A DNA stretch of 64,000 nt from Xiphias gladius (Eukaryota; Chordata; Actinopteri; Istiophoriformes; Xiphiidae), in assembly GCF_016859285.1 (NCBI RefSeq), contig NC_053405.1, positions 314,501-378,500 of the forward strand. Reading direction: 5' to 3'. The notes under the pieces are model-generated. The model searched no databases. It was not told where the DNA came from and was given only the letters and a program-made list of their open reading frames with translations. Every line of letters starts with the position of its first letter. The first letter of the stretch is position 1. The position numbers were made by a program, and so were the translations under genes. Of the stretch, positions 16,498 through 19,400 are shown one piece after another.

Positions 16498-19400
16498 CTA
16501 ACGGTTGACACAGTGCATGTTGAGCACAGCGTACGCTCTCTTTCTGGCCTCCTGGATGTACAGGTGCATGAAGTCACGTCCAAACATCTCCCTGTCATCT
16601 TCATCGTCCTCGTCCTCGTCATCCTCGGCCTTCGTCTTCCTGCACGGCAGCGCCACGTCCAGAGTCAGAGGGTTGTCCCGAAAATTCACAAACCTGCTCA
16701 GAAACAAAGACAAAAGTCAGATCAGACTGCACAGAGACAGACAGAGACGACTGAGAGGTTTATAATGAAACATCGTTTTAACTGTCAAACAGGAAACGAC
16801 TTGATCTGAGGCTGGAAGTGTCCCACCTGAGGTTGGACATGATTGTAGACACTTATATGAGGTCTGACGCGTTTGTGGACAGATTGATCTGAGGTTGGAC
16901 GTGTTTGTGGACAGACTGACCTGAGATTGGACGTGTTTGTGGACAGATTGATCTGAGGTTGGACGTGTTTGTGGACAGACTGACCTGAGGTTGGACGTGT
17001 TTGTGGACAGACTGACCTGAAGTTGGACGTGTTTGTGGACAGACTGACCTGAGGTTGGACATGTCTCAGATGAGGGTAGACGTGTTCGTGGACAGACTGA
17101 CCTGAGGTTGGACGTGTTTGTGGACAGACTGACCTGAGGTTGGACGTGTTTGTGGACAGACTAACCTGAGGTTGGACGTGTTTGTGGACAGATTGATCTG
17201 AGGTTGGATGTGTTTGTGGACAGATTGATCTGAGGTTGGACGTGTTTGTGGACAGATTGATCTGAGGTTGGACGTGTTTGTGGACAGACTGACCTGAGGT
17301 TGAACATGTCTCAGCTGAGGGTAGACGTGTTAGAGGACAGACTGACCTGAGGTTGGACGTGTTTGTGGACAGATTCATCTGAGGTTGGACGTGTTTGTGG
17401 ACAGACTGACCTGAGATTGGACGTGTTTGTGGACAGATTGATCTGAGGTTGGACGTGTTTGTGGACAGACTGACCTGAAGTTGGACGTGTTTGTGGACAG
17501 ACTGACCTGAGGTTGGACATGTCTCAGATGAGGGTAGACGTGTTCGTGGACAGACTGACCTGAGGTTGGACGTGTTTGTGGACAGACTGACCTGAGGTTG
17601 GACGTGTTTGTGGACAGACTAACCTGAGGTTGGACGTGTTTGTGGACAGATTGATCTGAGGTTGGATGTGTTTGTGGACAGATTGATCTGAGGTTGGACG
17701 TGTTTGTGGACAGACTGACCTGAGGTTGGACATGTCTCAGCTGAGGGTAGACGTGTTAGAGGACAGACTGACCTGAGGTTGGACGTGTTTGTGGACAGAC
17801 TGACCTGAGGTTGGACATGTCTCAGCTGAGGGTAGACATGTTTGTGGACAGACTGACCTGAGGTTGGACATGTCTCAGCTGAGGGTAGACATGTTTGTGG
17901 ACAGACTGACCTGAGGTTGGACGTGTTTGTGGACAGACTGACCTGAGGTTGGATGTGTCTCAGCTGAGGGTAGACATGTTTGTGGACAGACTGACCTGAG
18001 GTTGGACATGTCTCAGCTGAGGGTAGACGTGTTAGAGGACAGACTGACCTGAGGTTGGACGTGTTTGTGGACAGACTGACCTGAGGTTGGATGTGTCTCA
18101 GCTGAGGGTAGACATGTTTGTGGACAGACTGACCTGAGGTTGGACATGTCTTCCATTAGAGGGGGGATGTCTCTCAGTCTGTTGCTGCTGAGGACCAGAG
18201 TGTCCAGACTCGCCATCCTGCTGATGTTTTCTGGGAGTTTCTCGAGCTCGTTCCTCTGCAGCCACAGAGCGTGCAGCTTCTCCATCCTTAGGACAGACAT
18301 ATCTCACTGCTTATTGGCTGGTGGCTTAAAAGTCGGGTCTCAGATGATGTCACTGTCCTCCTTCACCCACCTGTGTATGTCCTCAGGTAAGTGCCGCAGT
18401 TGGTTTCCTCCCATGTCAAGCCACTCGAGCGCCGGCAGTCCGACTACGCAGTCCGGCAGGCAGGTGAAGTCATTCATGGATAGATCCAGGTGCTGCAGCT
18501 TCTTCAGGTTCCTGAACTACAGTACGGAGGACAGGACAGACCTCAGATCAGCTGGATCAGAGATTCAAAGGTGTCTATGGTATCAGTTTATACCTAAAAC
18601 TGATTAAGGTTAGTGCAGGTTCCTTAACTAGAATCTGGTTTAGGTTTTGGTTCGTTTGACTTTGGTTTCACACCTGGTTTGGAACCTGTTTGAGGTTTTT
18701 TGTGAGGCTTCATATTTGGTTTGGAGGTAGGTTTACGTTCAGACCTGGTTTGAAAGGTGTCTGTGGTATCAGCTAATACCTGAAGATGAAGCCAGTTACA
18801 CATGATCTGGAACCTGCCAGTTCACACCTGCTTTTGGAAGGTGGCTTAGGTTTGGGTTGGTATGCGTTTTAGAAACTGCTTGCACCTGGTTTGAGAGGTG
18901 TCTGTGGTATTCATTCATACCAAAGGCTGGTCTAGGTCTGTGTTCATACCTTTTTTAGGAACTGGTTAAGGTTTTGTTGCGTACCTGGTCAGAAAGCTGG
19001 TTTTGGCTTGGGTATCACCTGAATTGAAAGCTGTGATATTGATTCATACCTGAAATTGGTTTAGGTTTTGGTTCATACCTGGTCTGGTAGGTGGTCCAAG
19101 TCCCGGTTCATGGCCAGCTCCAGTCTCTCCAGACTCTCACAGCAGCTCAGCTCTTCAGGAACGAAGTGTACTCTGTTGTAGCTCAGCAGCAGCTCTCTGA
19201 GCCGGGTCAGCTTACCTGAGACCAGAACCAGGACATCAGAAAACTCAACATAGTGAGGCCTGAGACCGAACTGTACTGTCAGCTATAACTACAGGGTCTA
19301 TATCCTTCAAATCTGTAGTGGAAGTGGGGGGCATACTGACCGATCTGTTTAGGGATCTCGGTGACCCCATTGCGTGACAGATCGATAACCAAAAGGTTTT

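Follow-up and report, generated by a model that had tools for sequence, protein, structure and literature searches.

A minisatellite spanning the exon 6 border fills intron 6 of lrrc39 with copies of its own 5' splice site

Intron 6 of the gene that we take to be lrrc39, a muscle gene resembling those of fish, is almost wholly occupied by a tandem array whose unit repeats the end of exon 6 together with its donor, which raises the question of how such an array arose and what its surplus donors would do to the transcript. We consider it highly probable that this is a minisatellite of the 'mirage' type, seeded by the exon-intron border and tolerated because the most upstream donor normally wins. 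The window, that is the whole 64-kb stretch of DNA that was analysed, contains trmt13 (+), lrrc39 (-), dbt (-) and an rtca-like gene (+). In Pfam the lrrc39 protein matched LRR families, dbt matched acyltransferase, lipoyl and E3-binding domains, and trmt13 matched TRM13; the name lrrc39 as such, as well as that of the rtca-like gene, is assumed from resemblance. The borders of 24 introns were set by hand using junction strings that occur only once (5 in lrrc39, 9 in dbt and 10 in trmt13), and with these introns removed the reading frames of all three genes were open. One rtca-like intron was added to the hand-placed set and 25 introns were thus compared.

Table 1. Coordinates of the features discussed, numbered from the first base of the window; a slash marks the exon-intron border.
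Feature	Position	Strand	Basis or remark
trmt13 intron T6	10915-11259		
lrrc39 exon 7	16495..16693	-	coding up to the stop after ...NMHCVNR
lrrc39 intron 6, array-free 3' end with pyrimidine-rich tract and acceptor	16694..16802	-	last intron base 16694
Minisatellite	16803..18151	-	34 clear units of 32 nt; 2 degenerate ones towards the acceptor; 9 interspersed short ones of 21 nt
10 AT units, range	16806..17688	-	pattern scan, unit comparison
25 decoy GT donors, range	16827..18081	-	pattern scan; last base before GT, outermost two
First in-frame stop for read-through or any decoy past +85	18010..18012	-	
Real donor of lrrc39 intron 6, CAG/GTCAGTCTG	18125..18136	-	last exon base 18134
lrrc39 intron 6 (1440 nt)	18133 to 16694	-	
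lrrc39 exon 6 (153 nt)	18134..18286	-	junctions, frame, LRR matches; final 18 nt (18151-18134) belong to array unit 1
lrrc39 intron 4, candidate decayed array: copies of ACCAG/GTATGAACC and of the exon 4 end	18517..19078	-	junction copies, repeat families
lrrc39 exon 4 end, in two degenerate repeat families (D1, D2) continuing into intron 4	19079..19104	-	
rtca-like intron with ACTGTACATAC array at 40494-40735	40387-40851	+	

The limits of the array were recomputed as 16803-18151, one base away from the 16803..18152 of an initial annotation, and the array takes up 1331 of the 1440 bases of the intron. Its unit 1 consists of the last 18 bases of exon 6 (minus strand), which terminates ...GACATGTCCAACCTCAG at 18134, and of the adjoining donor. 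A pattern scan located 36 main sites, 26 with GT (the real donor and 25 decoys) and 10 with AT; the latter comprise nine clear sites and one degenerate, which agrees with the roughly 25 GT and nine AT units counted before. A clear 32-nt unit is found at 34 of these sites; the other two, closest to the acceptor, are degenerate, with GT at 16827 (21/32 bases like unit 1) and AT at 16806 (19/32). The nine 21-base short units are all without a donor. In the nine clear AT units, the change of G to A at +1 is always paired with one of G to A at +5, and the AT units are probably one double mutant multiplied by duplication. These copy numbers are those of the assembly, one sequence of one species, in which exact blocks of more than 200 bases may be miscounted.

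Within the array, duplication has also affected larger blocks, of 138 bp and of about 458 bp. A 115-base stretch of the border, made of 18 exonic and 97 intronic bases, is repeated exactly 138 bases downstream, which bears out the claim that the repeat unit holds the exon 6 end and its donor; judged from this exact copy, the exon border evidently took part in a recent expansion. The array is also identical to itself at offset 458 in four overlapping 100-base windows. Such exact internal duplications would fit recent turnover, and the length of the array would be expected to vary between individuals.

The 18-base donor junction of intron 6 was matched at 13/18 bases or better by 34 positions within the intron, compared with a shuffle mean of 1.0, and none of 150 dinucleotide shuffles reached this number. 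The 34 matches are mutual copies and not 34 independent events. When the other 24 donor junctions were compared with the array as a control, three matched it, dbt D8 28 times, dbt D3 once and T3 once. The match count alone is weak proof because arrays multiply one chance likeness, and it is the exact copies that carry the argument. At the same threshold of 13/18, own-junction matches among the 25 introns numbered 34 in lrrc39 intron 6, five in lrrc39 intron 4 and one in trmt13 T1, and were absent from all the others.

The repeated exonic piece encodes DMSNLR, which lies inside the leucine-rich repeats of the spliced protein; it aligns gap-free and in LRR register with LRRD1, an LRR protein of solved structure, and the Pfam LRR matches agree. 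Because this coding role accounts for the exon sequence, the exon border probably seeded the array and not the reverse, and the earlier proposal that the array had grown from the exon-intron border is upheld with the border as the likely seed. Growth in the opposite direction, whereby an array formed in the intron and invaded the exon end by chance or conversion, finds some support in the minisatellites that other introns of the window hold without their own border, such as that at 11436-13208 in trmt13, but the LRR register of those 18 exactly repeated bases makes such an invasion very unlikely. The array-free remainder of intron 6 measures 109 nt and is close in size to the shortest introns of the set, nine of the 25 having 74-125 nt; we count this as support for border-seeded growth of a once short intron.

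The claim that the decoy donors are identical or nearly identical to the real one was also confirmed. Of the 25 GT decoys, 22 carry the nonamer of the real donor, CAGGTCAGT, two carry CAGGTTAGT and one CAGGTGGGA. Scored with a weight matrix derived from the donors of the window, the real donor reached 10.7, third of 25 with two of the other 24 higher, and the 22 decoys tied with it. The real donor and the same 22 decoys had a U1 pairing energy of -8.0, within the span of -1.6 to -12.2 of the 24 window donors compared. Pairing was slightly stronger at the two GTTAGT sites (-8.2) and stronger again at the degenerate site at 16827 (-10.3), and the AT units gave -1.6 to -2.0. By these measures 22 decoys are predicted to be equal in strength to the real donor. 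Their shared nonamer and the stronger U1 pairing at 16827 count against an explanation in which the first donor is preferred, as does the predicted local pairing, which barely singles out the real donor: its mean unpaired probability was 0.47, fourth of 36 sites, with the other 35 at 0.25-0.54. The corresponding measure for the whole nonamer was about zero at all sites and uninformative.

Two further ideas were rejected. A local hairpin masking the decoys (CTGAG before some of them, CTCAG at the donor) would leave them less open, but some decoys rank above the real donor in openness. Selection against the decoys was dismissed as a single double mutant seems to account for the AT change and the donor columns of the unit are no more variable than the rest (3/9 in the donor versus 7/23 elsewhere), as expected without selection.

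Each AG/GT might also act as donor and acceptor at once, so that the array would be removed stepwise or leave tiny exons, as in human UBC. In favour of such dual-specific sites, CAG/GT is present in all GT units, UBC is a known array of this kind (PMC10809524), and five of the window's 25 real acceptors reach no more than 3.3, which is no better than the best unit site. However, the 36 unit sites score only -4.0 to 3.3 as acceptors versus 11.2 for the real acceptor of intron 6, and steps of 32 nt would shift the frame. From these low scores acceptor use within the array appears unlikely, and we regard dual specificity as extremely improbable. In the 3' end of the intron, beyond the array, the AG at 16727 scored 11.6 versus 11.2 for the real acceptor; splicing at this AG would bring an in-frame stop at once, as read by eye from the sequence.

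In order to predict the products of decoy splicing, all 25 GT decoys and the 10 AT sites were translated. The frame stays open for 121 nt past the real donor, to 18013 as annotated initially, and the stop follows at 18012-18010. Two of the 25 GT decoys, at +53 and +85, precede this stop and enter exon 7 out of frame; counted from MSNLR, their products end after 24 and 57 residues, respectively. At the remaining 23 GT decoys the stop is met, and one identical truncated protein with a 44-residue end results. None of the translated GT decoys or AT sites led into exon 7 in frame. Since 23 decoys share one stop and two read out of frame, the array cannot yield a family of C-termini and gives at most three decoy products. 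The initial annotation had proposed the array as a source of alternative C-termini, for which the open frame past the donor and the two ends from +53 and +85 would speak; we now consider this hardly credible, as no decoy product is in frame with exon 7 and 23 of the 25 decoys lead to the same product, without exon 7 sequence.

The distance from stop to junction is 17 nt for the +138 decoy and at least 70 nt for the remaining 22. The usual rule for decay sets a threshold of 50-55 bases between stop and junction, and by this rule the transcripts of 22 of the 25 GT decoys are likely targets. The array might accordingly be thought of as an unproductive-splicing device, in which the length of the array would govern how often decoys are used and so adjust the level of lrrc39 via nonsense-mediated decay. 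Those 22 decoys would suit such a device; moreover, the 31-bp VNTR of human CBS is reportedly associated with reduced CBS activity, to go by the title of Lievers 2001. On the other hand, the donor columns are neither kept nor lost more than other columns, and human F7, which has a similar layout, normally uses the first donor only (PMC6627357). Overall we find the decay device improbable.

We therefore return to the border-seeded minisatellite as the best explanation. The intron would once have been short, and tandem duplication would have carried into it a small piece of sequence from either side of the exon 6/intron 6 border; further duplications would have enlarged the array with the border still involved, through 32-nt and 21-nt units and then through 138- and about 458-bp blocks. 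Among the identical donors, splicing would normally pick the one that adjoins exon 6 and lies most upstream, for which human F7 and the amphioxus mirages discussed below are the precedents, and occasional use of a decoy would give a truncated frame that is mostly a target for decay. No function of the array itself is apparent. It offers a natural experiment in donor choice, with 23 donors of one nonamer in one intron at known distances, from which rules such as 'most upstream wins' could be read from cDNA without constructs.

Intron 4 of lrrc39 is reasonably likely to be an older, decayed array of the same kind as that of intron 6. Its five copies of its own junction at 13/18 or better compare with 0.06 by shuffling, and 0 of 300 shuffles reached this count; at 11/18 or better there were nine junction sites, eight of them with GT. 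Two repeat families run in register across the exon 4 border, one of 33 nt with seven copies at least 61% alike and one of 19 nt with eight copies at least 68% alike. Words of 12, 16, 20 and 24 bases from the exon 4 end gave p values of 0.011, 0.002, 0.020 and 0.005, respectively, against 575-655 control words. Several observations count against this assignment. The foreign donor junction dbt D3 also matched intron 4 three times, the intron's own acceptor junction matched once (p 0.017), and the start of the next exon was mildly enriched (p 0.035-0.075). In a sliding control along exon 4, the end scored 11.8 and some control words up to 12.0. TRF at score 30 found no tandem repeat in intron 4. 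Part of the signal may be base composition.

In the exon-end test, which covered the 14 introns of at least 300 nt, the rtca-like intron was the only further one below p 0.05. Its exon end, TACACTGTCAAG, resembles the unit of the array in this intron, with p 0.000-0.040 for the exon end and p 0.015-0.053 for the start of the next exon; no copy of its donor junction was found at 13/18 in its own intron. This is only a hint that the rtca-like intron might hold another border-derived array. It is conceivable, though doubtful, that border-seeded arrays are a recurrent way of intron lengthening in this genome, with a young case in intron 6, a decayed one in intron 4 and perhaps a third in the rtca-like intron. 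If so, donor copies would be a regular by-product of intron growth, made harmless by the order of splicing.

Repeats of other kinds were also observed in the window. The trmt13 intron at 11428-13251 (+) has a GC donor, AAG/GCAAGG, and a CCCCAGACTCC-type minisatellite (11436-13208) fills nearly all of it; the donor border of this intron does not recur in it at the 13/18 threshold. The dbt introns at 33572-34058 and 32761-33158 (-) look by eye like decayed minisatellites, with ACCAATAAAACTAC-like and CAGTGTCC-like repeats, and TRF reports repeat parts at 33672-33746 and 33850-33916; donor-border copies at 13/18 were not found in either intron. A 2.1-kb array of GTATTGTTGGTA-like units lies upstream of lrrc39 (21402-23499), and a 1.2-kb TC/TGTCTC-rich array at 62059-63265 encloses a 113-bp repeat.

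Arrays that repeat an exon-intron border are rare, and earlier examples are known from lancelets and from human genes. In a small open-licence literature search, no such array of a teleost was recognised from the titles and abstracts among the matches listed. The 'mirage' minisatellites of amphioxus occur in Adh3, in the globins BflGb6 and BflGb9 and in TnC, with a similar case in PGBD5; their length varies and regular splicing is reported to be undisturbed (PMC3087553, PMC3902484). The lrrc39 array shares with them the minisatellite-like tandem duplication across an exon-intron border, with a unit that spans this border, and splice signals (AG/GT in amphioxus) kept in many but not all units (here 26 GT, 10 AT and nine donorless short units). 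The amphioxus units measure 150-160 bp in the globins and 10-72 bp in Adh3, with six or three copies in two haplotypes of BflGb6, whereas the lrrc39 array has 36 sites of a 32-nt unit and nine short units, on the donor side only and in a vertebrate-like gene.

Among human genes, the 37-bp repeats of F7 intron 7 likewise place the real donor in the first repeat with copies of similar strength downstream, and the most upstream donor alone is used normally (PMC6627357). Gene and unit differ, and splicing was tested in F7 whereas lrrc39 is known from sequence. The 31-bp VNTR of CBS, given as c.1444_1467+7, is polymorphic in length with 16-21 copies, fewer than in lrrc39 (PMC2630376). Because these coordinates span 24 exonic and 7 intronic bases, we read its copies as repeating the border, a unit spanning an exon-intron border being what the two arrays share. 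The arrays of UBC and VCX3A have tandem AG/GT sites in common with lrrc39, but there they serve as donors and acceptors (PMC10809524), whereas the lrrc39 unit sites score low as acceptors. Lastly, the variable internal tandem repeats of human duplicated genes are also minisatellites, with an average unit of 30 bp and in part at exon-intron borders; they average about four units, and their alternative transcripts are backed by RNA records (PMC2812944). Next to these systems, lrrc39 adds a large vertebrate case together with a probable older, decayed array in intron 4. The class of mirage minisatellites thereby gains a large, vertebrate-like member. Should intron 4 be accepted as well, one gene would have made such arrays twice, at different ages, which bears on intron lengthening and on the possible origin of new introns.
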